A stretch of 42,332 bases of DNA from Pseudomonadota bacterium (lineage in GTDB: Bacteria > Pseudomonadota > Alphaproteobacteria > Rhizobiales > Pleomorphomonadaceae): contig JAGSYV010000013.1 of assembly GCA_018262505.1 (NCBI GenBank), positions 1 to 42,332 on the forward strand, given 5' to 3'. The notes beneath the pieces are model-generated. The model saw only the letters and a list, made by a program, of their open reading frames with translations, was not told where the DNA came from and did not search any database. The first letter of the stretch is position 1; every line of letters starts with the position of its first letter. The position numbers and the translations under genes are program-made. Below are positions 8,380 to 26,273 of the stretch, in pieces.

Positions 8380-8491
8380 GATAGCTGGTCCAACTATTGC
8401 CGATCAAAGTAACGGGCCGCCCTCCGATGCGGCGGCCTCACCCCGAGGGACAAGCCCGCCGGCAGCCGGAAAAGCGGCCCGGCAATGAAGG

Positions 8492-8525
8492 GGAACGCCG
8501 CCCTACCTGGATGGGGCGGCGTTCC
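8492..8525 (-). terminator. hairpin after ytfQ (mRNA-stabilising or partial terminator)
   Basis: GGAACGCCGCCC (8492-8503) pairs perfectly with GGGCGGCGTTCC (8514-8525) across a 10-nt loop, just beyond the ytfQ stop and upstream of ytfR. There is no strong U-tract. Such hairpins commonly raise the ratio of binding protein to membrane components by protecting the 3' end of the first cistron. Confidence 0.6.
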
Positions 8526-8534
8526 GGGTCGGTA

Positions 8535-9491
8535 TCAGTAACCGAGACCCTTCTTCTCGTCGTAGACCTTCTGCGGGTCATCAGCCGGCGTGTAGAGCTT
8601 GGACTCGGTCTGGATCCACTTGGCGGGCTCCTTCTTGTCCTTGAGGTAGGCATCAAGGGCATCGAAGGCCGGGCCGGCCATGTTGGGGGTCAGTTCGACG
8701 GTGGCGTTGGCTTCACCGGCGATGAAGGCCTGGAAGATATCCGGGACGGCGTCAACCGAGACGACCAGAATGTCCTTGCCCGGTTTCAGGCCGGCTTCCT
8801 TGATCGCCTGGATGGCGCCAACGGCCATGTCGTCATTGTGGGCATAGAGGGCGCAGATGTTCTTGCCGCCGCCTTCAGCCTTGATGAAGCTCTCCATGAC
8901 TTCCTTGCCCTTGGTGCGGGTGAAGTCGCCGGTCTGGCTGCGGATGATCTTCAGGTTGGCATGGCTGGCGATAGCGTCGTCAAAGCCCTTCTTGCGGTTG
9001 ATGGCAGGCGAGGAACCCGTCGTGCCCTGAAGCTCGACGATGTTACACGGCTTGTCGCCAACGTTCTTGACGAGCCACTCGCCCGCGACCTTGCCCTCGT
9101 AGACCGTGTCGGACGTGACGGCGGTGAGGTAGAGATCCTTGGGAGCGTCGATCGTACGGTCAAGCAGGATTACCGGAATCTTGGCTTCCTTGGCTTCCTT
9201 CAGGACTGCATCCCAGCCAGTGGCAACGACCGGGGCGATGAAGATGGCATCGACGCCCTGGGCAATGAACGAACGGACGGCCTTAATCTGGTTTTCCTGC
9301 TTCTGCTGAGCATCGGCAAACTTCAGGTCGATACCGCGCTTCTGGGCTTCGAGCTTGGTGACACTCGTCTCGGCGGCGCGCCAGCCGGATTCCGAACCGA
9401 TCTGCGAGAAGCCAACGGTCAGCGCGAAGGCGGACGAAATAGAAAGAGCCGTCGCAAAGGCGGTTGCGGCCAGCAAATTAAGAGTGCGCAT
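8535..9491 (-). CDS. ytfQ: periplasmic sugar-binding protein, YtfQ type
   Basis: Periplasmic substrate-binding protein of the importer (peripla_BP_4 family). A signal peptide MRTLNLLAATAFATALSI..SAFA ends near residue 23. The mature part shows VGFSQIGSESGWRAAE, LLDRTIDAP, LQGTTGSSPAINRKKGF, ALYAHNDDMAVGAIQA and VVSVDAVPDIFQA. The start at 9491 is chosen because GGAGGAGA precedes it and the product is 318 residues, the same as E. coli YtfQ. A longer frame to 9575 adds an unlikely N-terminus. YtfQ-type proteins bind galactofuranose and arabinofuranose-like sugars, which fits the araD/araC/galKT context. Confidence 0.93.
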   Translation of the reverse strand: MRTLNLLAATAFATALSISSAFALTVGFSQIGSESGWRAAETSVTKLEAQKRGIDLKFADAQQKQENQIKAVRSFIAQGVDAIFIAPVVATGWDAVLKEAKEAKIPVILLDRTIDAPKDLYLTAVTSDTVYEGKVAGEWLVKNVGDKPCNIVELQGTTGSSPAINRKKGFDDAIASHANLKIIRSQTGDFTRTKGKEVMESFIKAEGGGKNICALYAHNDDMAVGAIQAIKEAGLKPGKDILVVSVDAVPDIFQAFIAGEANATVELTPNMAGPAFDALDAYLKDKKEPAKWIQTESKLYTPADDPQKVYDEKKGLGY

Positions 9492-11869: not shown

Positions 11870-13054
11870 ATGAATATTCTTGTGGTTGACGACGATGCAA
11901 GCCAGAGGCTCTATATCAAGATGCAGCTTGAGCGTCTTGGTCATCAGGTATGCAGCGTCGATCGCGGTGATGCCGTTCTTAAGGCCATAGAAGAGAACGC
12001 AATATCTGTCGCAATCTGCGATCTTGAGATGCCCGAGATGGACGGCCTAACGCTGGTCCGCCTCATCCGCGAGCGCAATTGGGGTAGATATATTTATGTT
12101 TTGATGCTCACGGGGCGTGATCAAATTCAGGACTATGTCGCGGGGCTTGACGCCGGTGCTGATGACTTCATGTCCAAGCCTGCAAACATGGCAGTCCTGA
12201 CAGTTCGTCTCAACGCCGCCCGACGGCTTCTTGAATATGACCGGGAGCTGAATGCTCGCAACCTTCGGTTGTCAGAGGCGCAGGATCGTATAGAGGAGGA
12301 TCTCAAGGCTGCGGAGCAGGCTCAAAGAGCAGTATTGCCAAATAAAGAAAAGAAGATAGGGCAAGTTATGGCTCGGAGTGTTTTCTTACCATGTAGTTAT
12401 GTAGCCGGAGATATCTTTAATTATTTCCAAATCGATAACGGTGGCGTCGGATTTTACGCCGCAGACGTCTCCGGGCACGGTGTTCGCGCTGCTTTACTGG
12501 CAGTTGCACTTGGTTACGTCCTTACCCCCTCGATGTTCAGTTCCTTATCTCGTGACGAAGGTGAAGGATGGCGTCCGGATCGACTTGTCGATGAGCTCAA
12601 TCGCAGGTTCGGGCCGATCAGTGAGATGACCGGCTACTTTACCATCGTCTGCGGTGTCATTGATCCCCAACGTCGTAGCCTTGCTTTATGCCAAGCCGGA
12701 CACCCGCCGCTGCTGCGCTGGTCGAAAAGTGGTGTGACGGAAACGATCAATTGTAATGGTTTGCCGGTCGCTGTCTTCCCGGAAGCGACGTATGAGGCCG
12801 TGCAATTGACTTTCGAACCAGGTGATCGGCTTTTGATTTTTTCCGACGGTGTGTCGGAGGCAGCCGACACTAACGACGAGGCCTTCGGTGAGGAACGGGT
12901 CATGTCGATTTTCAGCGAGGGGGACATGCTATCCTCCGCGAAGATACTGCCCAAGTTGATAGATCAACTTGAAGACTGGGTTGGCAGGAACGAGCCAAAA
13001 GCAGACGATATATCTGCAATCTGCTTCGAATTCGAGGAGGGAACGGATGATTAA
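11870..13054 (+). CDS. response regulator with PP2C-type (SpoIIE/RsbU) phosphatase domain
   Basis: Two-domain regulator of 394 residues. The receiver (residues 1-120) has the acidic pocket VVDDD, phospho-acceptor D51 in CDLEMPEMDG, T81 and K103. A coiled-coil-like linker (about 125-155) joins it to a PP2C phosphatase with metal-binding aspartates D181 (VAGDIFNYF), D199 (ADVSGHG), D326 (FSDGVSEA) and KADDIS at the end. RsbU/HsbR-type proteins dephosphorylate a STAS anti-anti-sigma partner when their receiver is phosphorylated, and the next gene encodes such a STAS protein. Its stop overlaps the next ATG (ATGATTAA). It is likely an output of the hybrid kinase at 14495 (inference). Confidence 0.9.
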   Translation: MNILVVDDDASQRLYIKMQLERLGHQVCSVDRGDAVLKAIEENAISVAICDLEMPEMDGLTLVRLIRERNWGRYIYVLMLTGRDQIQDYVAGLDAGADDFMSKPANMAVLTVRLNAARRLLEYDRELNARNLRLSEAQDRIEEDLKAAEQAQRAVLPNKEKKIGQVMARSVFLPCSYVAGDIFNYFQIDNGGVGFYAADVSGHGVRAALLAVALGYVLTPSMFSSLSRDEGEGWRPDRLVDELNRRFGPISEMTGYFTIVCGVIDPQRRSLALCQAGHPPLLRWSKSGVTETINCNGLPVAVFPEATYEAVQLTFEPGDRLLIFSDGVSEAADTNDEAFGEERVMSIFSEGDMLSSAKILPKLIDQLEDWVGRNEPKADDISAICFEFEEGTDD

Positions 13055-13397
13055 TTTGATCGAGAAACGAGGCTCGTTTGCGGTGGTGGCTATCGATATT
13101 AAGCGTATTGATGCTCAGAACGCTTGCATGTTTCGCGATGAGTTGACGGCTTTGCTCAACGCTGGCTCAGCAAGCTTGATCCTGGACATGTCAGCGGTCG
13201 AGTTTGTCGATTCCAGTGGCCTGGGGGCCTTGGTTGGAGTCTTCAAGTCAATAGGCCCCCGCGGGGACCTCGCTCTGGCCTCCCCCAGACCCCCTGTCGA
13301 GAAAATGCTGAAGCTTACGAGGATGGACCGCGTATTTCGGTTGTTCGGCACATTGAGAGAAGCCGTCGAGGCGATTGCGGGTGTAGGCTCAAGCTGA
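13047..13397 (+). CDS. STAS-domain anti-anti-sigma-type protein (RsbV/SpoIIAA-like)
   Basis: A single STAS domain of 116 residues. The phosphorylation loop FVDSSGLGALVG contains Ser56/Ser57, one of which is the expected target of the RsbW-like kinase encoded next and of dephosphorylation by the preceding PP2C protein. The start at 13047 follows a GAGGAGGGAA ribosome-binding site and overlaps the upstream stop by 8 nt. The longer upstream frame from 12969 runs inside the phosphatase gene and is rejected. Phosphatase, STAS and ATPase in a row is the classical partner-switching set. Confidence 0.9.
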   Translation: MINLIEKRGSFAVVAIDIKRIDAQNACMFRDELTALLNAGSASLILDMSAVEFVDSSGLGALVGVFKSIGPRGDLALASPRPPVEKMLKLTRMDRVFRLFGTLREAVEAIAGVGSS

Positions 13398-13399
13398 CC

Positions 13400-13825
13400 A
13401 TGTCAAGCGATCTCCTAACAATCGCAAGCACCTCTCTTGATGTTCGGCGCGCGTTGGACTGGATCGCCAGTCAAATAAGTTCATCACCGTTCGACCATCG
13501 CAGAGACGACATCACCCTGGCGGCCAGCGAGGTGCTGAACAACATCGTCAGGCACGGATATGCTGAGGCCGTCAACGGACGCATTGACTTGGAGATCCGC
13601 CAAACGGACACCGGCCTGACACTCGTGATAACGGATACCGCTCCGCTTTCCCTGCCGGAGGCCATCGAGTCGGAAACCCATGACTTTCCGAAGATCGAAG
13701 ATATTCCCCGCGACGAATTGCCCGAGTCGGGTTTTGGCCTAGCGTTGATCTACGCATGCGCGGACGGCGTTACCTTTGAGCGTCTAGTTGATCGCAATGT
13801 GACGGTGCTGGAATTCTTATCGTAA
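13400..13825 (+). CDS. RsbW-like serine kinase / anti-sigma ATPase
   Basis: A 141-residue GHKL ATPase of the RsbW/HATPase_c_2 type. It has the N-box AASEVLNNIVRHGY (N47/N48), a G1-like DTAP at about 79, and the G2 box ESGFGLALIYACADGV near residue 110. Such proteins phosphorylate a STAS partner and, when not bound to it, sequester a sigma factor or another target. It starts 2 bp after the STAS stop. No sigma factor gene is adjacent, so the target is unknown; it may control one encoded elsewhere or act on a polysaccharide component. Confidence 0.88.
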   Translation: MSSDLLTIASTSLDVRRALDWIASQISSSPFDHRRDDITLAASEVLNNIVRHGYAEAVNGRIDLEIRQTDTGLTLVITDTAPLSLPEAIESETHDFPKIEDIPRDELPESGFGLALIYACADGVTFERLVDRNVTVLEFLS

Positions 13826-13951
13826 TAATTGACTATATTTTATTGAATTTGGAAACCTTCCGGTGGCGTTAACCGATAATTACTTCGTATAGTTGCATTG
13901 AAGGCAAATGCATGTTTTCTATCAGCGGTGCAAACATGTGGGGGCAGCAAC

Positions 13952-14485
13952 ATGGCGCTTCCCGTCAAAATCGATCTGCTCTGGTCCACGATCGCGCTGT
14001 TGTTGACGCTCACGTCTGGGCCCTCGGCGGCCTCTGCCGGGGAGTTGGGTGAGCCGACGGGTGAGGTCATCCTGACGATCTCGGGCTCCATCAAGAACAC
14101 TAACAACAACACCGGTGTGGCCGAGTTCGACCTGCCGATGCTTGAGGCACTTGCTCACGCGTCCTTAGTCACGACCACACCATGGACTGTCGGCCCGACA
14201 GCTTTCGAGGGAGTGGCAATTACCGACTTGCTGGCGGCCGTTGGCGCCAGTGGAAGCGCTATGACGGTAACCGCGCTTAACGACTACATCGCCACCGTGC
14301 CAGTCGCCGACGCTCAGTCCGGTGCGATACTGGCCTACAGGATCAACGGGGCCTATTTCTCCATCAGGGAAAAAGGCCCGCTCTGGCTGATGTATCCCTT
14401 CGACACGTTGCCGCAACTGAGACGCGAAGAAATCTACGCGCGTTCCGTCTGGCAAATCCGCAAGATCGACATAACAGCCAAATGA
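13952..14485 (+). CDS. exported SUOX/molybdopterin-binding-fold protein lacking the Mo cysteine
   Basis: A 177-residue protein with a signal peptide (MALPVKIDLLWSTIALLLTL...ASAGE, cleavage about residue 29) and one domain resembling the oxidoreductase molybdopterin-binding fold: ILTISGSI near the start, FDLPMLEAL, FEGVAITDLLAAVGA, and GPLWLMYPFD near residue 145. The mature part contains no cysteine, so the molybdenum ligand of true sulfite-oxidase enzymes is missing and catalysis is unlikely. It sits 9 bp before the hybrid kinase and may be its periplasmic sensory partner (inference). The ATG at 13952 follows GGGGGC; an upstream in-frame TTG at 13898 is less likely. Confidence 0.72.
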   Translation: MALPVKIDLLWSTIALLLTLTSGPSAASAGELGEPTGEVILTISGSIKNTNNNTGVAEFDLPMLEALAHASLVTTTPWTVGPTAFEGVAITDLLAAVGASGSAMTVTALNDYIATVPVADAQSGAILAYRINGAYFSIREKGPLWLMYPFDTLPQLRREEIYARSVWQIRKIDITAK

Positions 14486-14494
14486 GGAGGATGC

Positions 14495-17062
14495 ATGCTG
14501 GGCAGGCAGGGCTCATCGAGAGTTCATGCGCGGCCTCGCTGGGCCCGCCTCGTGCCGATTTACGTCGCCGGAGCTATTGGCTTGGTGACTCTTGCCTTTC
14601 TTGTGTCGCATGCCGTTTCAGAATTGCGCCGCATGATCGAGTCCCCGGATGACAATCTTCAGTGGGCGACGTTTCAAGTACAGAACGAGTTCAACCGCCT
14701 CCAAGTCAGCCTTGCCGACTTGGATGCGGGAACATGGACCACCATCGAGGAAGTTCAAAAGCGTTTCGACATTTTTTACAGCAGGATCGATCTCATTCGC
14801 TCAGCGCCGACCTTCGCTGAACTCCGCGCGGAACCCGACATTGCACCACTTATAGGTAAATTGAGCGAGTTCGTAGAAAAATCAAACCCAATAATTCACT
14901 CAAAAGACAAATTATCGGAAGAGAAAATTAGATCTTATAGAATATATTTGGACACCCTGCAGGATGATATGTATGAGTTCGTGCTAAAATCCCTGCATTT
15001 TTTCTCCAATAGGACTGATGTGCGCCGGGATGATCTAAAGATAGTTCTCGAATACATTGCTTTTTGGGCTTCGGCACTTCTTCTCTCATTAGCCTTGGCC
15101 ATCTTCCTGCTCATTCGGCAACGCGGCGAGCTGGTCGCCAGGGAGAACGAACTGAGGGAAAGCGAACACAGTCTGGCGGAAGCGCAGCGGATAGCGGGAT
15201 TGGGTAGCTTCAGCCGGGATCTTGTAACCGACGAGGCGGTCTATTCGGACGAATACAGGCGCATCTTCGGCATTCCGCAAGGAGGTCCAGCGAGGCGGGA
15301 AGAAGTCCTCGAGCGTATCCATCCCGAGGATCGCAACACTACGCATTTCGCCCTCGACGAACTTGCACGGAATGGAAAGGTTTCGGATTTCATCGAGCAG
15401 ACCTTTCGGGTTGCAACACCGGACGGGCAATGGCGCTGGGTCCATGGCCTTGCTGAGTTGCGTGGAACCGAGAACGGCAAGGCCGTCAAGATGGTTGGCA
15501 CGGTCCATGACATTACTTCCGAGCGGGAGATACAAAGCGCTTTGATCGCCGCAAAGAACGCAGCCGAGGAGGCGACGCATGCTAAGAGTGAATTTCTAGC
15601 CATCATGAGTCACGAGATTCGCACGCCGATGAATGGCATTCTCGGCATGTTGTCGGTCCTCGACGATACATCGCTGACCGATGACCAGAGAAAGCTGGTG
15701 TCTGTCGCCAAGGCGAGCGCCGATAGTCTTCTGGTACTGCTGAACGACATATTGGACATGTCCAAAATTGAAGCCGGCAAGATGGAGTTCGAGTTGTCGA
15801 CGTTCGAACTTCTTCCGTTGGTTAGAAGCGTCATCCATCTTTATTCGCCTCAAGCTCGGTCAAAAGGACTTGTTCTCGACTCCGTGGTTGACGAGGAGGC
15901 CCCTTCGGTCGTCATTGGCGACGCAGGACGCATACGGCAGGTTTTGCTGAACCTAGTCAGCAATGCGCTGAAGTTCACGACTCATGGGACAGTGATTGTC
16001 CGCTTGTGCGCTCCCAGGTCTCTGGGCATGACGGTGCGTTTTGAAGTTACCGACACCGGCGTTGGGATCGCTGAGGACAAGCACACCGCGGTGTTCGTCA
16101 GCTTCAATCAGATCGACCACAGCTATGCGCGCCGTTTCGGCGGTACCGGCCTCGGCCTGTCGATCTGCCGCAGCCTGATCGAGGCGATGAAAGGTGAAAT
16201 CGGCTTCGACAGCGTTGCCGGAAGTGGGTCTACCTTCTGGTTCGAACTGCCGTTGCAAATATCGCAAGCTCCCATTCGCAAGGAAGCTCGGGAGGAAGGA
16301 ATTCATCAGCCAGCCGCGGCGCTGCGGATCCTGGTCGCGGAAGACAATACGACCAACCAGATGGTAGCTCGCATGCTTCTCGAGGGGCTTGGCCACAAGG
16401 TTGACGTCGTCAACGATGGCCTTGAGGCGGTCGAGGCAATCAAGCGGAGAGCATACGATCTGATCCTCATGGATATATCGATGCCTGTCATGGATGGCAT
16501 TGAAGCCTCGCATCGCATCCGTGAGATGGGCGGACCATATGGTTCCATACCCATCGTTGCACTGACCGCCAACGCCATGGCGGCCGACCGAGAGATTTGT
16601 CTTCGTGCCGGTATAAATCGTGTGATGACCAAGCCGATCGTCAAGGCGAAGCTCGAGGCGCTTTTGTCCGAGATCCAGCAAGTGGATTGGGAAACCGCCG
16701 AGGTCATCCCGGAAGTTCTGAACGCCGACACCCTGCAGCAGCTTTCCCTCGACCTTGGCGTGGAAGGAACTGCTCAGTTGCTTCGTGCCGCCGCGGAAGA
16801 CTTCAACAGACTGGAAGCGGATGCCCGGCAAGCGCTGGAACTGTCCGACGGCCTTCGGCTTCGCCGCGCCTTCCACGCTATGCGGGGCGTTGCTGGCAAT
16901 ATCGGTGCCGTGGAGCTTCAAGAGGCGACATCCAAGGGCGAAGACGCCTTGCTGAAGGATGATGGCGCTGCCTTGTCATCGCTCTGGTCGACGGTTGAGC
17001 GACCGCTTGCCAACGCACGGAACGAACTGGAACGCATAGAAAAGCAAAGCCAGACGGAGTGA
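14495..17062 (+). CDS. membrane hybrid sensor histidine kinase with PAS, receiver and Hpt domains
   Basis: An 855-residue phosphorelay kinase. TM1 is about residues 20-40, followed by a helical periplasmic region (45-185) and TM2 (186-207). A PAS domain (about 228-345) contains the IHPEDR and FRVATPDGQWRWVHG motifs. The HisKA phospho-acceptor is H373 in MSHEIRTPMN. HATPase boxes are NLVSNALKFT, DTGVGI and GGTGLGLSIC. The receiver has D660 in LILMDISMPVMDG, and a C-terminal Hpt has H794 in AFHAMRG. A GAGGAGG site precedes the ATG. The Hpt could pass phosphate to the receiver-phosphatase at 11870. The stretch 14860-15060 is notably AT-rich compared with the flanking chromosome. Confidence 0.93.
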   Translation: MLGRQGSSRVHARPRWARLVPIYVAGAIGLVTLAFLVSHAVSELRRMIESPDDNLQWATFQVQNEFNRLQVSLADLDAGTWTTIEEVQKRFDIFYSRIDLIRSAPTFAELRAEPDIAPLIGKLSEFVEKSNPIIHSKDKLSEEKIRSYRIYLDTLQDDMYEFVLKSLHFFSNRTDVRRDDLKIVLEYIAFWASALLLSLALAIFLLIRQRGELVARENELRESEHSLAEAQRIAGLGSFSRDLVTDEAVYSDEYRRIFGIPQGGPARREEVLERIHPEDRNTTHFALDELARNGKVSDFIEQTFRVATPDGQWRWVHGLAELRGTENGKAVKMVGTVHDITSEREIQSALIAAKNAAEEATHAKSEFLAIMSHEIRTPMNGILGMLSVLDDTSLTDDQRKLVSVAKASADSLLVLLNDILDMSKIEAGKMEFELSTFELLPLVRSVIHLYSPQARSKGLVLDSVVDEEAPSVVIGDAGRIRQVLLNLVSNALKFTTHGTVIVRLCAPRSLGMTVRFEVTDTGVGIAEDKHTAVFVSFNQIDHSYARRFGGTGLGLSICRSLIEAMKGEIGFDSVAGSGSTFWFELPLQISQAPIRKEAREEGIHQPAAALRILVAEDNTTNQMVARMLLEGLGHKVDVVNDGLEAVEAIKRRAYDLILMDISMPVMDGIEASHRIREMGGPYGSIPIVALTANAMAADREICLRAGINRVMTKPIVKAKLEALLSEIQQVDWETAEVIPEVLNADTLQQLSLDLGVEGTAQLLRAAAEDFNRLEADARQALELSDGLRLRRAFHAMRGVAGNIGAVELQEATSKGEDALLKDDGAALSSLWSTVERPLANARNELERIEKQSQTE

Positions 17063-17117
17063 TTAGTCCATCTTGAGAAACCTGCCCGAACTGGGTGCAG
17101 GAGCGAGGAATGGTGAA

Positions 17118-18707
17118 ATGTTCAAGTGTTCCCGTTGGGTCGCTTTGGCGGTCGGCCTAGGAGTGGTTCTGGGCGCGCAGCAGGCTTTCGCCGCCATTCA
17201 TAAACACGCCGGTCGCAATGGAGAGCTGACTCCGCAGGAGATGGCGATGGCGAAAGCTGCGTGGGCCTATTTCGAGGTTGCCACGCAAAAGGAAACGGGT
17301 CTCGCCGATTCGGTGTTGACCTATCCGTCAACAACCATGTGGGACACGGCTTCCTATATCGGTGGCATCGTTGCCGCCCATGAACTTGGTCTCATCGATA
17401 GGTATGCGTTTAATACGCGCCTGCTGCAGGTCCTGAGCAGCCTCCAGAAGCTTGAACTCTTCCGGGGAGAACTACCAAATAAAGTCTATGACACCCGGAC
17501 GGCAGCAAAGGTCGACTACGCCAACAAGCCAGGTGAGGTTGGATTCTCCGCCAATGACCTCGGACGCCTTTTGATTTGGCTGAAGATACTCAAGGGTCGC
17601 TATCCATACCTTGCCAACAGCGTCGACAACGTAGTGCTGCGTTGGCATTTCTGCAATGTCATCCAACCCGATGGAACCCTGATGGGGGCATCAATTTCCG
17701 CCGACGGGAAGACCAGCTATTTTCAGGAAGGTCGCCTCGGTTACGAAGAATATGCCGCCAAGGGGTTTGCGCTTTGGGGATTTCCCACGCGCGCGGCCGA
17801 GTCGCCAGACCCGTTGGCCTGGACCGAAGTCATGGGCGAACATATCCCCTATGACGGTCGTGACCCACGCTTCACCAAGACGATGAATTATGTGGTGACA
17901 GAGCCCTATATTCTGGACGGCCTAGAGCTCAATTTCGACCTTCCTGGGGATATCTTGACGTCTACGCAAGTTGCCAGCGATGGCTGGCGTGCCGAATTCG
18001 CGACGCGCGTTGTCGCGGCCCAGCAGCGTCGCTGGGAATACACGGGAATTATGACGGCAAGGTCCGAGCACAATGTTGAAGGCCCTCCGTATTTTGTCTA
18101 CGATACAGTATTTTCCGACGGATACGCTTGGAATACGCTCGATCCCCAGGACAATTACACACCAGAGCGCGCAGCCATCGCCACCAAAGCCGCCATTGGC
18201 ATTTGGGCGCTCTGGCCATCGGTCTATTCCGACATGTTGTTCGACGCGGTCTCCAATCTCTACGTTCCCGACAAGGGCTTCTATGAAGGTCTCTATGAGA
18301 ACGGGCGAGGCGTTATTCCTCTGCAGACGGCCAACAACAATGGCATCATCCTTACCGCACTTCTGTACAAGGTTAAGGGTCCTCTCCTAACCTATGCCAA
18401 TACCGATACTCAGATCTGGGAAAAAGCCGATTCGAACGAATACTTCTGCCGGCCATCGGTACGCACTCCGATGGTCTGCAAGGTGCGCCAGCCGATCGCC
18501 CCCAAGGAGTATACATATTGCAAGCCGGCAACAGGGGCCTCGGCATCGGCTGTGGCCAAGCTCGCCGGGCAGGGCGCCATCGGCGTTACCAATTGTGCCC
18601 TTCCGCGGCTTAGCCCGAAGGCGCCCCACCCAACCCCAAGGCTGCAACTGCGAGCGACGGCGGCGGCCGCAAACTGCCTGTGTCTGCCGGCACCTTTGAC
18701 GAGGTGA
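17118..18707 (+). CDS. exported DUF3131 protein, C-terminus apparently frameshifted
   Basis: Signal peptide MFKCSRWVALAVGLGVVLGA...AFA, then a DUF3131 domain predicted to be a helical barrel like glycan-active enzymes. Family blocks are YPSTTMWDTASYIGG, ELPNKVYDTRT, EGRLGYEEYAAKG, VTEPYILDGLELNFD and KGFYEGLYENG. The start at 17118 has AGGA 8 bp upstream; a TTG start at 17073 would precede the signal peptide. The last 30 or so residues look out of frame. An alternative frame from 18614 to 18742 reads KLPVSAGTFDEVIIEAREYG and ends in a TGA that overlaps the next TTG start. One missing C near 18614-18616 would restore it. The protein is paralogous to the product of 21734-23083. A role in trimming or modifying the polysaccharide is inferred. 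Confidence 0.8.
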   Translation: MFKCSRWVALAVGLGVVLGAQQAFAAIHKHAGRNGELTPQEMAMAKAAWAYFEVATQKETGLADSVLTYPSTTMWDTASYIGGIVAAHELGLIDRYAFNTRLLQVLSSLQKLELFRGELPNKVYDTRTAAKVDYANKPGEVGFSANDLGRLLIWLKILKGRYPYLANSVDNVVLRWHFCNVIQPDGTLMGASISADGKTSYFQEGRLGYEEYAAKGFALWGFPTRAAESPDPLAWTEVMGEHIPYDGRDPRFTKTMNYVVTEPYILDGLELNFDLPGDILTSTQVASDGWRAEFATRVVAAQQRRWEYTGIMTARSEHNVEGPPYFVYDTVFSDGYAWNTLDPQDNYTPERAAIATKAAIGIWALWPSVYSDMLFDAVSNLYVPDKGFYEGLYENGRGVIPLQTANNNGIILTALLYKVKGPLLTYANTDTQIWEKADSNEYFCRPSVRTPMVCKVRQPIAPKEYTYCKPATGASASAVAKLAGQGAIGVTNCALPRLSPKAPHPTPRLQLRATAAAANCLCLPAPLTR

Positions 18708-18738
18708 TCATAGAAGCCAGGGAATATGGGAGGCGTCT

Positions 18739-19923
18739 TTGAGCAAAGGCCATGTGACCGAATTGTCGGGCGGCAAGCCGCTGCGACTGACTTGGATCGA
18801 CGCTCTTCGCGTCTACGCGGCCCTTGGCGTGGTGCTGATCCATACGACTACCGACTTCGCCGGCCAGCCGTTCGAAGAGGCTACGCCCGGGGAACGCGTG
18901 GGACCTGCCGTGTTGCGTGTGGTGGGGGAGCTCTCAGGCTCCGAGCTATTCTTTCTTTTTTCGCTGTTTCTGCTCGCTTGGAAACTCGATCGACGGGACA
19001 TGAGCTGGTCGACTTCCGCGCTCGACCAAGCCAAACGATTGCTTATTCCTTTTCTCGCCTGGACGGTATTCTATGCCTTCTTTCGCCTCTGCAAGGCCAC
19101 CGAGTTCAACTACTCCGCTGCCATTCTTGCCGAATTAAGCCAAGTAAAGTCTTGGGTGCAATATCTGGTTCTAGGTAGCGCCCAATACCAGTTGCATTTC
19201 TTGCCGGAATTTTTCCTGATCAGTCTTTTCGTTCCCTTGATCAGGTCTGGGGCGCGCTATCCACTCGCCGGATTCTTCCTTGTCCCAGCGCTATTCGTCA
19301 TGAACGACGTGCAGGGGTGGCTCTGGGGCAATATTCAAGACCCCAACCTGCGTGACTATCTGCTCAGAGCTGTCAAGATCCTCTGCTATACCGGCTACGG
19401 CTTGGCTGCCTTTGCTCTTTTTGGCGTCTGGAAGCGACAGCTCGACAAGCCGGCATCTGAAGCAATTGCCCGACTGGCGATCCTTTCATCGATCATCCTC
19501 TTCACGGGTACACTCACTTATGCCGGGATGCTTGTGGCAAAGGGAAACTGGGGAATTCGTCCGCCAACTGCGTTCTATGCGCATTTTCTAATGCCCGTGG
19601 CGGTCTTCTCGATTTTTCTCGGTTTGCAGTATTGGCCCTGGAGCCCGATGTATTCGCGGTTGGCGCGCTTTTCTTTTGGCCTCTATCTGGTGCATCCCAT
19701 CTTCATCGACGCCATTGATATCGCCCTGCATCGAAGCGGCCTTGCTCTCGATCCGACGGTAATGGTCGTCGGCAAGTTCACGGTGGCCGCGACCCTCTCC
19801 TTCGCTTTCAGTGTCCTCATCGGCCGTTTTGCTGCCACCGCGTGGCTGATTGGTCTCGGGCCGGTTCCGCTGGTTACCCGCTTCAGCGAACGTGGGGCGA
19901 TCGGCAAAGGGGGAGGGGCGTGA
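18739..19923 (+). CDS. acyltransferase family 3 membrane protein
   Basis: A 394-residue polytopic inner-membrane protein of the acyltransferase-3 (OafA/WecH-like) family, with about ten hydrophobic segments. The N-terminal signature WIDALRVYAALGVVLIHTTTDF contains the expected catalytic His35; FGLYLVHPIFID lies near the C-terminus. Such enzymes acylate or succinylate sugars during envelope polysaccharide synthesis. The start is TTG with a GGGAGG site 5 bp upstream, overlapping the restored stop of the DUF3131 gene (TTGA). Its stop is directly followed by the GT2 ATG. It probably decorates the glycan made by that GT2. Confidence 0.85.
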   Translation: MSKGHVTELSGGKPLRLTWIDALRVYAALGVVLIHTTTDFAGQPFEEATPGERVGPAVLRVVGELSGSELFFLFSLFLLAWKLDRRDMSWSTSALDQAKRLLIPFLAWTVFYAFFRLCKATEFNYSAAILAELSQVKSWVQYLVLGSAQYQLHFLPEFFLISLFVPLIRSGARYPLAGFFLVPALFVMNDVQGWLWGNIQDPNLRDYLLRAVKILCYTGYGLAAFALFGVWKRQLDKPASEAIARLAILSSIILFTGTLTYAGMLVAKGNWGIRPPTAFYAHFLMPVAVFSIFLGLQYWPWSPMYSRLARFSFGLYLVHPIFIDAIDIALHRSGLALDPTVMVVGKFTVAATLSFAFSVLIGRFAATAWLIGLGPVPLVTRFSERGAIGKGGGA

Positions 19924-21747
19924 ATGGCTTTCTATTTCGACGCCTTCGAGGAAAGACAACCACCTCCGCCACTGTCTTATTCCCCGTGGCGCGAGCTTTT
20001 GTGGCAATATCTTGCCACGATCACTCTTATCATCGGTGCTTGGTACCTGTATTGGCGGTGGAGCGCTTCGCTCAACTTCGATGCCCTCTGGTTTGCGATC
20101 CCATTGGTTGTCGCAGAAACTGCGGCCTACGTTGGGCTTGTCCTTTTCGTCTTCAATCTATGGCGCGACGACCCGCCTCGCCCCCGCGAGCCGCCTGCTT
20201 CGATCAACGCTTGTCTCGAGGAGCCGCTGGCCGAAGATCGGCCGATTTCTGTCGACATCTTCTTTGCCACATATAGCGAAGATCCCGAACTCGTTCGCCT
20301 TGGGCTGATCGATGCGAAGAAGCTCGACTACCCTTTTCCAATCGACTTGCGCATCCATGTCCTCGACGACGGCCGGCGCCCTGCCATGGCCGCCGTCGCT
20401 CGGGAGGAAGGCGTCAATTATCTGACAAGGGCCAACAACATCGGCTTCAAGGCCGGCAATCTTCGCAACGCCATTGAGCAGACGTCCGGTGACTTCATCG
20501 TCATCTGCGACGCGGACACTCGACCGTTCCCAACCATGCTCGCGCGTTGCCTCGGCTATTTTCGTGACCCCAAGATGGCTTGGGTACAGACGCCGCAATG
20601 GTTCTTCGACTTGCCGGAAGGCACGCGCCTACCCGACTGGTTGGGCAAACGGCTTTATGCGCCGGGCCGCTGGATTGGGCGTGCGGTGGAGGCGATCGCG
20701 GGGCCGATCTCCATCGGCTACGATCCTTACGTCAACGATCCCAAGATGTTCTACGACGTGATCTTGCGGCGGCGGAACTGGGCCAACGCAGCCTTCTGTT
20801 GCGGCGCCGGTTCGATTCATCGGCGCGAGGCAGTGCTCGAAGCGGCCCTCAGGGCATATGGCGCCCAAATCGATCGTCTTGCTCTGAAATCGATCCGCAA
20901 GGCTGCACGCCACAGCGGAGAGACCGCGCTCGCCGGTCCGGTCGAAGCCATGATCCGTAGCGGCCTTGCCCACGAACACGAGTTCACTCCTTACAAGTTT
21001 CACGTTTCCGAGGACATATACACGTCGATCGAGCTGCACTCCGATCGTGAACGTGGATGGAAATCTGTTCTCCATCCTTACATCGAATCAAAGATGCTCT
21101 CACCGCAGGATCTGTTGAGCTGGACTGTTCAGCGCTTCAAGTACGCCGGAGGGACTCTTGATATTGCATTCAATGATAATCCGATTATTCGACCAGGACT
21201 TACGTTGCGTCAGAAGGTAATGTATACTGCGACGTTCTGGTCATATCTTGGATCTATATGGAATATAGTTTTCCTTATATCGCCGATGATCTATTTTTAT
21301 TTCAATATATCGCCGGTTAAGGCATATTCGGGAGATTTTTTCATACACTTTCTGCCTTTTGTAATGTCACTCGAACTGGCGATGATGATCGGCACTTGGG
21401 GGGTGCCCGGTTATGCGGCGAAGTCGAGCTACCTTTCCTTTTTCCCTATCAATTTCAGAGCGTTGTGGACGGCTTTGCGCGGACAGAAGATCAGCTTTCC
21501 TGTGACCCCCAAGCAGCGCCAGACCGGACGACATCTGTCGATTGTTCGCCCACAAATCGCGGTGGTGTTTTTGACGCTTTCCGGGCTGGTGTTGGCCGTC
21601 GGACTGCAACTGGGCGGTTTCAGGACCTACTCGACGGCGGGGTTGCTATCCAACGCGTTCTGGGGCCTCAATAACGTTTTTGCCATGCTCGGTATAATCC
21701 GGGCTGCTTTCTGGCGACCGATGGAGGAAAACAATGACCTTCCGTGA
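19924..21747 (+). CDS. cellulose-synthase-like family 2 glycosyltransferase
   Basis: A 607-residue processive membrane GT2. Two N-terminal TM helices (about 28-48 and 57-80) precede the catalytic domain with the UDP-sugar aspartates D148/D149 (VLDDG) and D196/D198 (CDADTRP). QTPQWFFD is near 225, FCCGAG near 291, the base-like SED near 362-364, and a variant QxxRW motif, QRFKY, at 403-407. Several C-terminal TM helices follow. These are the hallmarks of cellulose synthase and NdvB/NdvC-like enzymes. There is no PilZ domain, so c-di-GMP control is not built in. The gene starts with no gap after the acyltransferase and its end overlaps the next gene by 14 bp. The product polymer is unknown. Confidence 0.88.
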   Translation: MAFYFDAFEERQPPPPLSYSPWRELLWQYLATITLIIGAWYLYWRWSASLNFDALWFAIPLVVAETAAYVGLVLFVFNLWRDDPPRPREPPASINACLEEPLAEDRPISVDIFFATYSEDPELVRLGLIDAKKLDYPFPIDLRIHVLDDGRRPAMAAVAREEGVNYLTRANNIGFKAGNLRNAIEQTSGDFIVICDADTRPFPTMLARCLGYFRDPKMAWVQTPQWFFDLPEGTRLPDWLGKRLYAPGRWIGRAVEAIAGPISIGYDPYVNDPKMFYDVILRRRNWANAAFCCGAGSIHRREAVLEAALRAYGAQIDRLALKSIRKAARHSGETALAGPVEAMIRSGLAHEHEFTPYKFHVSEDIYTSIELHSDRERGWKSVLHPYIESKMLSPQDLLSWTVQRFKYAGGTLDIAFNDNPIIRPGLTLRQKVMYTATFWSYLGSIWNIVFLISPMIYFYFNISPVKAYSGDFFIHFLPFVMSLELAMMIGTWGVPGYAAKSSYLSFFPINFRALWTALRGQKISFPVTPKQRQTGRHLSIVRPQIAVVFLTLSGLVLAVGLQLGGFRTYSTAGLLSNAFWGLNNVFAMLGIIRAAFWRPMEENNDLP

Positions 21748-23083
21748 GGGGCTTTGGAGAGCTCGCAGCCACATTATTTTCATCGTCGGCCTTCTCTCGG
21801 CGATGGCGTTGATCGTCGCTGTCGATGCGGATGTGCTGAACCGGGAAGAGCCTGCAAACGCGAGCGTAATCGAGGCCGAGCGGTTGCTCGTGACGCCCGA
21901 TCCGCTGAAGCTTAGAGTGCCGCGCTCATTGCAACCGGACGAGCTTCAATGGGCGCGCTTGGCCTGGCATTATTTCGAGAACAACGTCGATCCCGGTACT
22001 GGGCTGGCCAATGCCGCCGACCGTTATCCATCGACCACGATGTGGGACACGGCATCCTATGTTTTCGCGCTGATGGCGGCCGAACGCCTCGGGATCATCG
22101 ATAGGGCCGAATTCGATCGACGTTGCGCGCTGATGCTGGCGAGTCTCGCGCATCTGCCTCTCTATGATGGCGCGTTGCCCAATAAGGCTTACCATACGCG
22201 AACGTTGTCGATGGTCGACTACAACAACAATCCGACCACTGTCGGTATCGGGTGGTCCGGCCTCGACATAGGACGCATGGCGGTGGCTTTGAGCGCCGTT
22301 GCGCGCGCTTATCCCGAACAGTCGGCAGCGGTCTGGGCCGTTATCGAACGCTGGAACCTCGGGCGCCTCGTCCGCGATGGATACCTGCGAGGGGGAGCGG
22401 TCGAGCCGGATGGTAGCCTCAAGGACACGCAGGAAGGGCGCCTCGGCTACGAGCAATATGCCGCGCGGGGCGTCCTACTACTGGGCGCAGATGCACTCTT
22501 TGCCGGTTATGGTCTCGCACACGTCGCCTTTGCTTCGGTGGAGGGCGTTCGCGTACCCTATGATGAGCGATCTCAGAAACAGTTTGATGCTCCTGTCTTT
22601 GCCACCAGCGAGCCTTATTTCCTGACTGGCCTGGAATTTGGACTAGACGGTTTGATGGAAGCCTTTGGACGGCAAATATACTATGCCCAGAAACAGCGCT
22701 ACCTTACCAAGGGGACAGTCACTGCCGTGAGCGAGGGGCATCTCGATCAACCGCCTTTCTTTAGCTACTCAACCGTCTACGGCAACGGCACGCCCTGGGC
22801 GGTGTTGACCGGAAAGGGCGAGACGCTACCCGGAATGCGGACCTTCAACACCAAGGCCGCGTTTTCCTGGGCAGCATTGGTCGATGACGATTATGCGCCT
22901 GTCCTTCAGACGGCGGCCCTTCCCCTCAACGACCCGCAACGAGGTTGGTACGAAGGACAATATGAAGGGGGAAAGGTCAATGCGGCCATGACTGCCAATA
23001 CCAACGGCATCATCTTGGAGAGCCTGCATTTTCGTGCCTTCGGGCCGATTCTCCGCGGTGTTGTACGAGATGGCTTAAAGTAA
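21734..23083 (+). CDS. second DUF3131 protein, membrane-anchored
   Basis: A 449-residue protein with an N-terminal hydrophobic anchor (RSHIIFIVGLLSAMALIVA), so probably periplasmic and tethered. The DUF3131 blocks match the product of 17118-18707 one by one: YPSTTMWDTASYVFAL, ALPNKAYHTRTLSMVDY, EGRLGYEQYAARG, ATSEPYFLTGLEFGLDG and RGWYEGQYEGG. Its start overlaps the GT2 gene by 14 bp, indicating coupling. It is intact, unlike its paralogue, and it is the last gene of the cluster before the IS remnant. It could be a glycan hydrolase or transglycosylase acting on the emerging polymer; no catalytic residues can be named from sequence alone. Confidence 0.85.
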   Translation: MTFREGLWRARSHIIFIVGLLSAMALIVAVDADVLNREEPANASVIEAERLLVTPDPLKLRVPRSLQPDELQWARLAWHYFENNVDPGTGLANAADRYPSTTMWDTASYVFALMAAERLGIIDRAEFDRRCALMLASLAHLPLYDGALPNKAYHTRTLSMVDYNNNPTTVGIGWSGLDIGRMAVALSAVARAYPEQSAAVWAVIERWNLGRLVRDGYLRGGAVEPDGSLKDTQEGRLGYEQYAARGVLLLGADALFAGYGLAHVAFASVEGVRVPYDERSQKQFDAPVFATSEPYFLTGLEFGLDGLMEAFGRQIYYAQKQRYLTKGTVTAVSEGHLDQPPFFSYSTVYGNGTPWAVLTGKGETLPGMRTFNTKAAFSWAALVDDDYAPVLQTAALPLNDPQRGWYEGQYEGGKVNAAMTANTNGIILESLHFRAFGPILRGVVRDGLK

Positions 23084-23132: not shown

Positions 23133-23919
23133 TGACGTTGTCCCTTGCGCCTAATCCGGTTTGAAGTTCGTTCTGGCCCATTGAGAGGACCAGAACATGA
23201 GACGCAGTCGTTTCAGCGAAGAGCAGATCATCGGCATCCTGAAGGAGCGCGAGAGCGGCGTGCCTGTCGCGGAACTATGCCGCAAGCACGGCGTCAGCGA
23301 CGCCAGCATCTACAAATGGAAAGCCAAATACGGCGGCATGGACGTCAGCGATGCCAAGCGACTGAAGGCACTTGAGGACGAGAATGCCAAGCTGAAGCGG
23401 ATGCTGGCCGAAGCCATGCTGGACAATGTCGCGCTGAAGGGACTGTCCGGTATGCGTGTGGCTCGCGGGCTCGATCGGCTGATCGTCGAACGCGGCAAGC
23501 CGAAGATGATCGTCTCCGACAATGGCACCGAGTTCACCAGCAACGCCATCCTCACCTGGGCCGAAAAGGCCGTGGTCGAATGGCACTACATTGCGCCGGG
23601 CAAACCGATGCAGAACGGCTTCATCGAGAGCTTCAACGGCCGCCTTCGCGACGAGTTGCTCAACGAGACACTGTTCTCCTCGCTGGCCCAAGCAAGAGCT
23701 GCGCTGGCGAATTGGAGGGCCGATTACAACACGTCTCGCCCGCATACCCAGATCGACTGGCGTACGCCGTCCGAGTTTGCGGCGACCTTCCCATCCCGTC
23801 GGGCTCTGGCGCTCCGCCAAATGACAGGCTCCACGCCGACGCCCGACACCGTCGTCCGTCAGGACAAAACCAACACCGGAAACGAACTCAGAACTGGATA
23901 AATCCTAGGGGCGACGTCA
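23133..23919 (+). mobile_element. internally deleted IS3-family (IS407-like) element
   Basis: The left end TGACGTTGTCCCT (from 23133) is an imperfect inverted repeat of the right end AGGGGCGACGTCA (to 23919), both of the TGAC...GTCA type seen in the IS407 group. The 787-bp interior holds one fused transposase frame instead of the usual orfA/orfB pair of about 1.2 kb. No target duplication is visible: GGAG is on the left and GCCA on the right. This points to an old insertion or rearranged flanks. Confidence 0.75.
23197..23901 (+). pseudogene. OrfA-OrfB fusion remnant of an IS3-family transposase
   Basis: Residues 1 to about 84 are a complete OrfA: helix-turn-helix [36 protein letters not shown], and a leucine-zipper stretch ending [12 protein letters not shown]. 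They run straight into the C-terminal part of the OrfB integrase core: [13 protein letters not shown] with the second catalytic Asp, and [18 protein letters not shown] with the catalytic Glu. The N-terminal part of OrfB with its helix-turn-helix and first catalytic Asp is missing, about 100 residues or more. The DDE triad is therefore incomplete and the protein cannot transpose. The fusion stays in frame, so a 234-residue DNA-binding protein could still be made. Confidence 0.8.
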
Positions 23920-24707
23920 GCCAGGCTCGTAAGTGCCTGGTTTTTGTGCCTTCTCGAGAGAAGCAACGCACTTTGCGCTTTACTTTCGTGCCACCTCAGC
24001 TAACGCCCCTAAAGCATGTCGACCGTCCCTGTGTTACTCCGGAGAATTTTCTGGAAGCGGGCAGGGTGGAAATTTCCCTGCTGGTCAGTTCAGAACAAAA
24101 GACAATGCGCTCAACCTTAAGGTGACCAAAGGCCGACTTGTTACCCTTCTTCGCCCGTCGTAGAAAGTGGCCGACAGGGCTCCCGGTGTTTCTATTCTGT
24201 AGAATTTCAATTTCTTCGAATAAAGTATAATTCGTCTATATTATTAGAAATACACATCCATTATCTGGACATAAACGCAGATTTATCTCAATATTACAAT
24301 GAATTACTTATGAAGAAATGAATTAAACGCTGACGTACCCGTATAAAATTCTTCCGTCACTCAAGTTCTGCCGCAGAGTTTCAGATTTTCAATTCGATAT
24401 GATATTCTCTTAATAAATCTGGTCTTTTGTCTTCGGTCGCTGCACGAAAATTCTTTATGTCGGCGCAAAGTGCTAAATATTTACCAACCACGCTCCGGTG
24501 ACGCAGCGCAAGAGGCCCGATCGCATTATTCTCAGCGCAGACAGATCAACTAATGGCCGCCCTCCAAATGCATCGAGCCACATTGTAAACCATTCATTAA
24601 TTCGGTGTCAGGGTATAAAGTCTGCTTGTTAGGGTTGTGTTTTTTTGTATCTATCAATTCATATGCGCCGCGTTGCGGATCGCGAATGCGTGGCGAGAGG
24701 TGAGAAA
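23920..24707. other. AT-rich non-coding stretch at the island's right edge
   Basis: About 790 bp with no recognisable gene. From about 24180 it is clearly richer in A and T than the rest of the window. I see no tRNA-Leu 3' duplication that would mark an attachment site, and no second mobile element. A TATAAA box at 24614-24619 could serve the GGDEF-EAL gene, but it has no convincing -35. Confidence 0.5.
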
Positions 24708-26273
24708 ATGCGGCCTTTAAGGGTGGGAAGAGCAACCCGAGATGCAGCAGTCCTCGTTTTCATCGGTGTCTTCCTTTTTGCCGCCGCCTGGTGGCTTGAG
24801 TTATACGAGAAGTTGGCCGCCTTTATAGACAGTCATGAGTTCATGCAGGCGGATGAACTGTTTATCGCGCTGCTCATCGTTGGGATCTTGGGCTTCGCTT
24901 TCGGCTATCGCCGGCTTCACGACCTGAAGGTCGAGGTTGCCCACCGCAGGCGTGCCGAACGGGACGTGTCCTGGATTGCGGCGCACGATCCCCTGACTCG
25001 CCTCCCCAATCGCATCGGTCTCAAACAGCAGGTCGATCGGTTGAGAGAAGACGGCAAGACTGGAAAACCCCACATGGCCATGGTGATCGATATCCAAGGC
25101 TTTAAGCATATCAACGATCTTCAAGGAAACGAGATCGGCGACGAGATCTTGGCCGTCATCGCCGACCGACTGCGGGACATCTTTATCGGCTGCTATCTGT
25201 TCCGCCTCGGAGGCGATCAGTTTTACGCGGCCCAAGAAAGCTCGATAACGAAAGATTGGGAAAAGCTGGCCCGCCGGGCGATCAAGAAAGTAGCTGAGCC
25301 GATCGAGATCAACGGCCGCTCTTACGAAGTTTCGGCTTACGTCGGGATGGCCCGATATCCGGATGACGCCGCCAACATAAAATATCTTCTTCGATGCGCG
25401 CTTTCTGCGGCTTCCGCCGCAAAAAGGGAGCATTCCAACGAAATGAAATGGTTCGACACGGCCGTCGATGAGGCGACCGCGAGATATGCGGAGCTCGACA
25501 AGCAACTGCGAGCGGCGCTCAAGGCCGGAGAGGTGCGTCCCTATTATCAGCCGATGATCGATCTGACCTCAGGTCGGATAATCGGCTTTGAAGCTTTGGC
25601 GCGATGGCGCCGACCTGATGGCAGCTTTGTTTCGCCAGCGGAGTTCATTCCATTGGCTGAAGAAACCGGCATGATCGGTGAGCTTTCGAACGTATTGTTC
25701 ACCCAGGCATGCCAGGATGCCGCCAAATGGCCACGCGGTGTCAGGCTATCCTTCAATGTGTCGCCGACGCAGTTCAGCAATCGCAGCTTTGGGAGGCAAA
25801 TGCTCGATACGCTTGCGACAACAGGGCTTTCTCCAAACCAGCTCGAGGTGGAAATCACCGAGTCGATGTTTGTCAAAGATGTCCAGCTCGTCGCCGTGTT
25901 GCTCGACGAACTCAGGGAAGCGGGGGTTCACATTGCCATTGACGACTTCGGCACCGGCTATTCCAGTCTGTCGCAACTATCACGACTGAGATTTGACAAG
26001 CTCAAGATCGACCGCAGCTTTGTGTCGTCCTTCCTGGACGATGCGCGCCAGGCCATGATCATACGCGCAATGATCGGCCTCGGGCGGGGGCTCGGCATGA
26101 AGACCATTGCCGAAGGCATCGAAGAAGCCTCGCAGGCCGAGACCCTTAAACTGCTGGGTTGCCATCAGGGACAGGGATTCCTGTTCAGCCGCGCCGTGCC
26201 CGCCGAGCAAGCGACGAGTTTGCTCCAAATGACTTGGCCGACACGGTCGGAAGACACCACGGCAACGAACTAG
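24708..26273 (+). CDS. membrane GGDEF-EAL protein, probable c-di-GMP phosphodiesterase
   Basis: Two hydrophobic segments (VLVFIGVFLFAAAWW and LFIALLIVGILGFAFGY) precede a GGDEF domain and an EAL domain in about 521 residues. The GGDEF signature reads RLGGDQF, so the cyclase site is altered and probably inactive or GTP-sensing. The EAL domain keeps GFEALARW, NVSPTQF, EITES, IDDFGTGYSSL, DKLKIDRSF and AEGIEE, all expected metal- and substrate-binding motifs, so it should hydrolyse c-di-GMP. The ATG at 24708 is chosen for its AGAGGTGAG site; in-frame TTG (24645) and ATG (24663) lie upstream. Standing just beside the polysaccharide cluster, it may affect the same surface phenotype (inference). 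Confidence 0.88.
   Translation: MRPLRVGRATRDAAVLVFIGVFLFAAAWWLELYEKLAAFIDSHEFMQADELFIALLIVGILGFAFGYRRLHDLKVEVAHRRRAERDVSWIAAHDPLTRLPNRIGLKQQVDRLREDGKTGKPHMAMVIDIQGFKHINDLQGNEIGDEILAVIADRLRDIFIGCYLFRLGGDQFYAAQESSITKDWEKLARRAIKKVAEPIEINGRSYEVSAYVGMARYPDDAANIKYLLRCALSAASAAKREHSNEMKWFDTAVDEATARYAELDKQLRAALKAGEVRPYYQPMIDLTSGRIIGFEALARWRRPDGSFVSPAEFIPLAEETGMIGELSNVLFTQACQDAAKWPRGVRLSFNVSPTQFSNRSFGRQMLDTLATTGLSPNQLEVEITESMFVKDVQLVAVLLDELREAGVHIAIDDFGTGYSSLSQLSRLRFDKLKIDRSFVSSFLDDARQAMIIRAMIGLGRGLGMKTIAEGIEEASQAETLKLLGCHQGQGFLFSRAVPAEQATSLLQMTWPTRSEDTTATN

Follow-up and report, generated by a model that had tools for sequence, protein, structure and literature searches.

What does a partner-switching module control when it is encoded together with a cellulose-synthase-like glycosyltransferase? 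The question is raised by a contig of 42,332 nt (JAGSYV010000013.1, assembly GCA_018262505.1) from a member of the Pleomorphomonadaceae (Alphaproteobacteria; Rhizobiales). This entire contig, part of a 5.28 Mb draft genome, is referred to as the window. Nine co-directional genes occupy positions 11870–23083 on its + strand, and the reading frames together with Pfam bear out the domains given to them in a first-pass annotation made from the sequence alone:

11870..13054, +: response regulator receiver with a PP2C (SpoIIE-type) phosphatase, partner-switch input (Pfam Response_reg 4e-25, SpoIIE 2e-40)
13047..13397, +: single STAS-domain protein with phosphorylation motif DSSGLG, proposed output onto the synthase (Pfam STAS 4e-19)
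13400..13825, +: RsbW/SpoIIAB-like ATPase, presumed serine kinase of the STAS protein (HATPase_c_2 1e-18)
13952..14485, +: PruR orthologue, exported, SUOX-fold, predicted to bind pterin (weak Pfam Oxidored_molyb match, 4e-6; phmmer match to 7kos)
14495..17062, +: DTB-like hybrid kinase, PAS-HisKA-HATPase-receiver-Hpt, with two transmembrane segments (Pfam; WX7E motif between the segments)
17118..18707, +: first DUF3131 protein, periplasmic, with a signal peptide (Pfam DUF3131 1e-117; hydrophobic N-terminus)
18739..19923, +: acyltransferase 3 membrane protein, accessory decoration (Pfam Acyl_transf_3 5e-24)
19924..21747, +: cellulose-synthase-like GT2 without PilZ, with a helical hairpin before SED (Pfam, NCBIfam, nearest PDB chains)
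21734..23083, +: second DUF3131 protein, N-terminal membrane anchor and (alpha/alpha) barrel (Pfam 2e-129; structure model)

The STAS start was read from the frame as ATG 13047, which gives an overlap of 8 nt with the phosphatase gene, and that of PruR as ATG 13952; the first DUF3131 start was placed at the ATG near 17118, with a signal peptide. The acyltransferase stop abuts the GT2 start (19923/19924), and the GT2 and second DUF3131 genes overlap by 14 nt.

The simplest reading of the comparisons described below is that the STAS protein, acting on the synthase, forms the output of the switch, with phosphorylation as a removable layer of control. In its full form the cluster would be a horizontally acquired, signal-gated polysaccharide machine, and we put the probability of the whole chain at about 0.42. 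Reduced pterin on periplasmic PruR would be sensed by the DTB-like hybrid kinase, the sign of this control being presumed, and phosphate would pass from the kinase histidine to its own receiver, to the Hpt domain and from there to the receiver domain fused to PP2C. This phosphatase would then strip the serine phosphate off the STAS protein, which in its dephosphorylated form would bind the GT2, perhaps via the hairpin, and switch synthesis on, and the RsbW-like ATPase would be the kinase that turns the STAS protein off again. The polymer would cross the inner membrane through the GT2, and be acylated by the acyltransferase, and the two DUF3131 proteins would trim or transglycosylate it.

The first step in the argument is that the genes belong together. 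A contig search with an alignment of GT2 proteins gave at least 407 relatives, of which the best 80 were taken with their neighbours unselected; with the window, L021 (found via GT2), and L022–L024 and L025–L031 (found via DUF3131), they make up 92 loci, in which families were counted by profile searches seeded with the window proteins. DUF3131 is found in 92/92 loci, the ATPase in 86, PP2C in 84 and STAS in 88, in 87 of these as a stand-alone protein of <450 amino acids (aa), and the core is spread over Alpha-, Beta- and Gammaproteobacteria and Desulfobacterota. None of seven control loci, stretches of 10.6–19.5 kb that surround other cellulose-synthase-like GT2s from this order, has a match to PP2C, STAS, ATPase or DUF3131. 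Because the core recurs across several classes and 0/7 controls show it, the grouping is beyond chance, and the first pass was right to treat the genes as one recurring system. It had named as fatal to the grouping a consistent occurrence of DUF3131 and GT2 genes without the regulators; the counts just given, with the 87 stand-alone STAS proteins, show the opposite for close relatives. The key residues are also kept: D188, D206 and D333 of PP2C (numbering of the stop-to-stop frame) are invariant in 84 rows, the D and S of the STAS motif in 87, and the N-box E and N of the ATPase, which we take to be catalytic, in 87. The window proteins carry the sequence features of an RsbU/V/W-type set, i.e. 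a PP2C, a STAS phosphoserine and a HATPase_c_2 kinase.

The loci without a full switch are informative as to what it is linked to. L022, L023 and L024 have distant GT2s that are 42–44% identical; L071 and L098 are truncated by a contig end close to the GT2, and L083, on an 8 kb contig, is without PP2C. Because the more distant DUF3131-linked GT2s (L022, L023, L024 and L127) are without the switch, the link is with this clade of GT2s rather than with DUF3131 generally. A Sphingobium plasmid encodes this GT2 with PP2C, STAS and ATPase, as well as a GH16 protein and the product of a gene annotated as bcsS, and no DUF3131 match exceeds 15 bits across 26 kb. On a Nostoc plasmid, a stretch of 31 kb contains DUF3131, GT2, STAS, PP2C, ATPase and a kinase, not all on the same strand. 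No DNA match to GT2-DUF3131 was seen in E. coli genomes by a search at the DNA level. The closest GT2 among the matches listed, which are mostly proteobacterial, is in L032 (68% identity), a contig labelled Mycobacterium sp. KBS0706; the label is doubtful.

Not all nine genes belong to the core. The first-pass annotation had taken them as one set; PruR (13/92) and the acyltransferase (47/92) are accessories. Acyltransferase 3 was considered as a core member and rejected on this count, which rises to 57 loci if OpgC is accepted in its place; a histidine kinase core is found in 51/92. In 8 of the 91 other loci (L028, L049, L051, L053, L085, L086, L107 and L108) the nine families do co-occur, with DUF3131 in two copies; the PruR-kinase pair is there on the opposite strand. 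The gene order of the window is repeated in L064 (Jiella), minus the first DUF3131.

Which component of the switch is the output is suggested by loci in which part of it is missing. In L059 and L079, sister rows from Paracoccus, the locus includes the PruR-kinase pair, a LuxR-type regulator, STAS, DUF3131, GT2 and the acyltransferase; PP2C and ATPase were not found within 10 kb, or the extent of the contig, on each side. In family f222, of the same phylum and another class, STAS is upstream of GT2 in L129, L131, L132, L133 and L134, with one gene between in L129; no ATPase was found between STAS and GT2 and no PP2C in the stretch, which is 4.6 kb in L134. L130 begins too late for STAS or ATPase to be judged. 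The converse, ATPase without STAS, is seen in 1 of 106 loci (the 92 and L126–L139, with L128 duplicating the contig of L064), and this locus, L098, is cut by the contig end. The STAS motif DS[ST]xxG is present in 89/89 readable rows with ATPase in the locus and in 0/7 rows without (one row is unreadable, and L064 is counted again as L128). The seven read DSTAIS (×2), DASGIA (×2), NSSGLA (×2) and DSTGLA (×1), and the phosphoserine is Ala in 2/7. Because STAS persists with GT2 where ATPase and PP2C are unseen, and its motif is altered there, we favor STAS as the output. As a separate observation, the genes directly upstream of STAS in L129 (13816–15260) and L131 (3215–4518) encode a pair of small membrane proteins, one or both of them PAP2-phosphatase-like by eye.

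This output has precedents in the literature, which is cited here and below for the portions of text available. SypA with the S56A substitution complements a sypA mutant and the S56D form fails (PMC4517449). The diguanylate cyclase SiaD is activated by SiaC, which in its unphosphorylated state attaches to stalk helices of the enzyme; SiaB serves as the kinase and SiaA as the phosphatase, and HsbA-HsbD and BgrV-BgrR are further pairs in which a STAS-type protein acts on an enzyme (PMC8457831).

The same loci bear on the suggestion of the first-pass annotation that the target of the ATPase might be the synthase, in which case the ATPase would bind and inhibit the GT2 and STAS would merely titrate it away. 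The ATPase frame lies <300 nt from GT2 in 23/85 loci with STAS, ATPase and GT2, and in L086 (Yoonia vestfoldensis, 6651–8846) it is in one frame with DUF3131, by true fusion or a lost stop. Against this, two lineages keep STAS with GT2 without a visible ATPase and the converse is confined to a contig end. The pattern of gene loss points instead to STAS as the protein kept with the synthase, and inhibition by the ATPase itself is quite improbable.

The canonical partner switch offers another output: the ATPase would sequester a sigma factor encoded elsewhere, STAS would free it, and the polysaccharide genes would be its regulon. Switches ending in a sigma factor are the classical kind (PMC8256260), and the hallmark residues are kept in both STAS and ATPase. 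Pfam identifies no sigma factor among the nine proteins of the cluster, in line with the first pass, and no sigma-like open reading frame was found in 106 loci at E 1 with four queries, sigma-type proteins encoded in the same genome as the window, which in a control find each other in pairs. SigB, SigF or SigG was above the curated cut-off in 0/30 genomes, compared with 1/14 control genomes. Other sigma70-type proteins are present in 30/30 and could provide a non-canonical partner, but STAS persists where the locus shows no ATPase, and an anti-anti-sigma factor would be needless there. We consider this output unlikely.

If STAS acts on the synthase, the GT2 may offer a docking site. Its best NCBIfam match is CelA, at 207 bits against a cut-off of 699, the nearest PDB chains are catalytic subunits of cellulose synthase, and no PilZ domain is found by Pfam. 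Residues 301–351 (window 20824–20976) are modelled as a hairpin of two helices, 301–331 and 338–351 (mean pLDDT of the model 85). The segment from FCCG to (S/T)ED that contains it is 28 aa in 5/7 controls (those readable), 45–57 aa in four DUF3131-linked GT2s without the switch and 66–85 aa in the other GT2s read, 74 being commonest. Of the stretches tried, the hairpin has the highest raw correlation with STAS. Based on the model, it is perhaps a candidate STAS docking site.

The absence of PilZ also bears on a third alternative, that STAS acts on a diguanylate cyclase and the synthase answers cyclic di-GMP (c-di-GMP) indirectly. STAS-type proteins with such enzyme targets have been published, i.e. 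HsbA-HsbD and BgrV-BgrR of Sinorhizobium meliloti (PMC8457831), the window has a GGDEF-EAL gene at 24645–26273, and a PilZ-domain gene lies upstream of GT2 in the Sphingobium locus. However, the window GT2 itself is without PilZ, a transposase remnant separates the GGDEF-EAL gene from the cluster, and no GGDEF gene was seen near the cluster in the annotation tables inspected, the other loci not having been searched for GGDEF. A cyclase as intermediary is therefore a rather unlikely explanation.

Upstream of the switch, the window appears to have a sensor of a known type. The exported protein described in the first pass as SUOX-fold does have this fold; what was missed is its relation to PruR and its pairing with a WX7E kinase. 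It matches PDB 7kos over residues 28–173 (phmmer E 3.5e-42; also 7rkb, 2.2e-35, and 7kp2, 3.9e-21), and 7KOS is PruR of A. tumefaciens (PMC13259868). The molybdenum-ligating Cys is absent, with 0 Cys within the fold in 13/13 PruR proteins including that of the window, and a pterin-site Trp and Tyr, in register with 7kos, are invariant in the same 13; they are equated with Trp160 and Tyr104 by alignment, not by numbering. A Cys-free fold and the pterin-site Trp and Tyr are given as PruR features in PMC13259868. The protein is single-copy in its own genome and has a hydrophobic N-terminus, the only sign of export seen. On these sequence features it is a PruR orthologue with predicted pterin binding. 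The adjacent kinase has the WX7E motif (WATFQVQNE, residues 57–65) between transmembrane segments 17–44 and 181–210; the pattern is present three times in the protein, and its position between the segments is kept in 13/13 proteins including that of the window, one of which (L044) is without a PruR match in its locus. The segments are approximately 137 residues apart, compared with a periplasmic region of approximately 190 aa in DcpA/DTB (PMC13259868), and the best NCBIfam match is TorS, below cut-off. By the PruR features and the WX7E motif, the two proteins are a probable PruR-DTB-like sensor pair. PruA was tried as a source of reduced pterin and dropped: TIGR02685 gave 26 matches in the own genome, all weaker members of the reductase family and 0 over cut-off.

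The sensor appears to vary in front of a constant switch. PruR is found in 14/106 loci and H-NOX in 19/106, the two together in none, and a tree of the GT2s (108 rows, built by a quick method) requires at least 3 changes between these states. The H-NOX gene of L027 adjoins a HisKA-HATPase-receiver-Hpt kinase, and a globin gene precedes the hybrid kinase in Pantoea stewartii and a Salmonella plasmid. Sensors are thus probably exchangeable plug-ins upstream of a common switch. The set also occurs on a plasmid of Salmonella enterica (L192), typed as conjugative and IncF, together with OpgC, a globin, a hybrid kinase, GH2 and three DUF3131 genes.

Several observations weigh against the proposed chain. 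The evidence from loss comes from two lineages, i.e. at least two events and not seven, and the sequence available upstream of STAS in L129, L131, L132, L133 and L134 is only 2.3, 4.4, 1.8, 2.9 and 1.8 kb, respectively. All genomes with an ATPase-less locus encode other HATPase_c_2 and SpoIIE proteins elsewhere, so that a kinase could act in trans. L126 has this type of GT2 with a segment of 66 aa, DUF3131, Hpt and a divergent receiver-PP2C, and neither STAS nor ATPase is recognisable there; conversely, the Nostoc relative has the switch genes but approximately 50 residues in the segment (by eye). The hairpin is kept in length and variable in sequence (mean entropy 2.3 bits vs. 0.86 for the catalytic part), and its co-variation is unspecific, with a partial r of 0.32 with STAS and 0.47 with PP2C; another GT2 stretch has a partial r of 0.44 with STAS. 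The association of hairpin and switch follows clades and may reflect one event. On the input side, Hpt was not found in 6/8 other loci holding all nine families, while the window has it. A LuxR-type response regulator adjoins PruR in nine loci (L028, L049, L051, L053, L059, L079, L086, L107 and L108; none in the window), where the kinase may have a transcriptional output, perhaps as a second one. The idea that this regulator replaces PP2C in L059 and L079 was dropped, the same regulator being present in seven other PruR loci.

The product is likely a decorated beta-glucan. DUF3131 is modelled as an (alpha/alpha) barrel (pLDDT 92.8), for which the top Foldseek matches are putative glucoamylases, endo-beta-1,2-glucanases and the cyclisation domain of cyclic beta-1,2-glucan synthase (4qt9 at E 6e-12, 8wy1 at TM-score 0.64, range 0.5–0.64); sugar epimerases/isomerases and BcsZ match more weakly. 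The sequence profile finds 8wy1 at 3.6e-6 and NdvB at 0.048, and D178, E234, D253, D277, E301, D305 and E334 are among the invariant acidic residues. Judged by the model, the fold is beta-1,2-glucanase-like and the hydrolase activity putative; the first DUF3131 protein is putatively glycoside-hydrolase-like through its relation to the second copy. Profile matches in the 106 loci include GH16 (9), GH2 (20), OpgC (10) and esterase (18). Because accessory families that trail the operon in many relatives have no convincing match in the window, the window copy may be a reduced version. Two conserved families without a Pfam domain also trail the operon (L025, 14320–16940, and relatives), with matches in approximately 41 and 65 of 106 loci; the latter count, for hypB of L025, is approximate, as the frames in L032, L046 and L048 overlap DUF3131. 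A weak search with one hypB query found nothing in the own genome. At a guess, these are candidate export or anchoring proteins.

In this genome the cluster is an island. The GT2 is missing at E 1e-20 from 13/13 same-genus and 6/6 same-family genomes, and GC content is 52–59% across the nine genes vs. 61–62% for the flanking lipB and mgtE (names by our reading). The lipB–mgtE interval is 16.0 kb in the window and 1.0 to 8.8 kb in 9/13 same-genus genomes; it is 25 and 44 kb in two others, and the two genes are on separate contigs in two more. A search for repeats at the island edges gave weak pairs only, and promoter and terminator sites were not above shuffled sequence (5 vs. 7.2 and 13 vs. 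14.2). The island and the occurrence on plasmids elsewhere would also be expected if regulatory and glycan genes simply traveled together with no functional coupling. The same core is, however, present in contigs of several classes with swapped sensors, and we regard co-travel as highly improbable.

Other features of this region were noted. A transposase-like open reading frame at 23197–23901, after the last gene, resembles a shortened IS3-type element and is read as the 3´ edge of the island. The GGDEF-EAL protein, a c-di-GMP enzyme, is encoded beyond this remnant with a GC content close to that of the island; the lipB–mgtE interval of the same-genus genome G003 (1.0 kb) is too short to contain its gene. 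The mgtE-like frame (26723–27796) aligns to the best copies of 12/13 same-genus genomes only up to residue 332–333; frames in the genus are approximately 480–530 aa, and the window copy is possibly frameshifted or misassembled.

The targets of the STAS proteins SypA and HmpV are described as unknown in the available text of PMC4517449 and PMC8256260. A STAS gene that in several classes remains next to one and the same enzyme, including loci with no visible kinase or phosphatase, names a testable target. If the proposal is true, it amounts to c-di-GMP-independent control of a cellulose-synthase-like enzyme. The broader idea that widespread enzymes of the cellulose synthase family are switched directly by STAS docking on a synthase-specific helical hairpin, independently of c-di-GMP and PilZ and downstream of exchangeable redox or gas sensors (PruR-pterin, H-NOX, globin), is put forward tentatively, and we hold it to be possible though somewhat doubtful.

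Compared with known systems, the cluster combines familiar parts. The classical motifs of cellulose synthase are QxxRW and TED. The window GT2 shares the catalytic core of Bcs cellulose synthase, as judged by the nearest PDB chains, and differs in having QRFKYAGG and SED, a helical hairpin and no PilZ; Pfam shows no BcsB- or BcsC-like protein among the nine of the cluster. In the open-access PubMed Central literature, the gene set was found named only in the available text of a paper on Klebsiella pneumoniae (PMC12974863), and the cluster is common to many bacteria and apparently not described as a system. Accessory ‘block 3b’ of that paper is the same system by gene list, not by sequence, and is tied there to a proposed ecocline; it is presented, in the part available, as a population-genetic block with no mechanism. 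HmpUVW of Nostoc likewise has partner-switch proteins, within a motility and polysaccharide locus, but its target is unknown and DUF3131 is unmentioned in the available text (PMC8256260). SypE-SypA of Vibrio fischeri likewise has a phosphorelay-controlled STAS protein for a polysaccharide biofilm, with post-transcriptional control suspected; it differs in that SypE fuses kinase and phosphatase, the syp locus has 18 genes and the target of SypA is not known (PMC4517449). In SiaABCD of Pseudomonas aeruginosa, a phosphatase, a kinase and a STAS-like protein are present as in the window, and the last of these, when unphosphorylated, activates the adjacent enzyme. There the enzyme is a diguanylate cyclase, whereas in the window it is a membrane GT2, and SiaC is a DUF1987 protein, not a Pfam STAS (PMC8457831). 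Finally, PruR-DcpA and PruR-DTB of Agrobacterium and others have the same PruR beside a WX7E membrane sensor, including a TorS-like kinase with PAS and receiver; the window differs in its output, which is a polysaccharide synthase together with a receiver-PP2C partner switch (PMC13259868). If the proposed chain is correct, the PruR-DTB kinases gain a concrete output.

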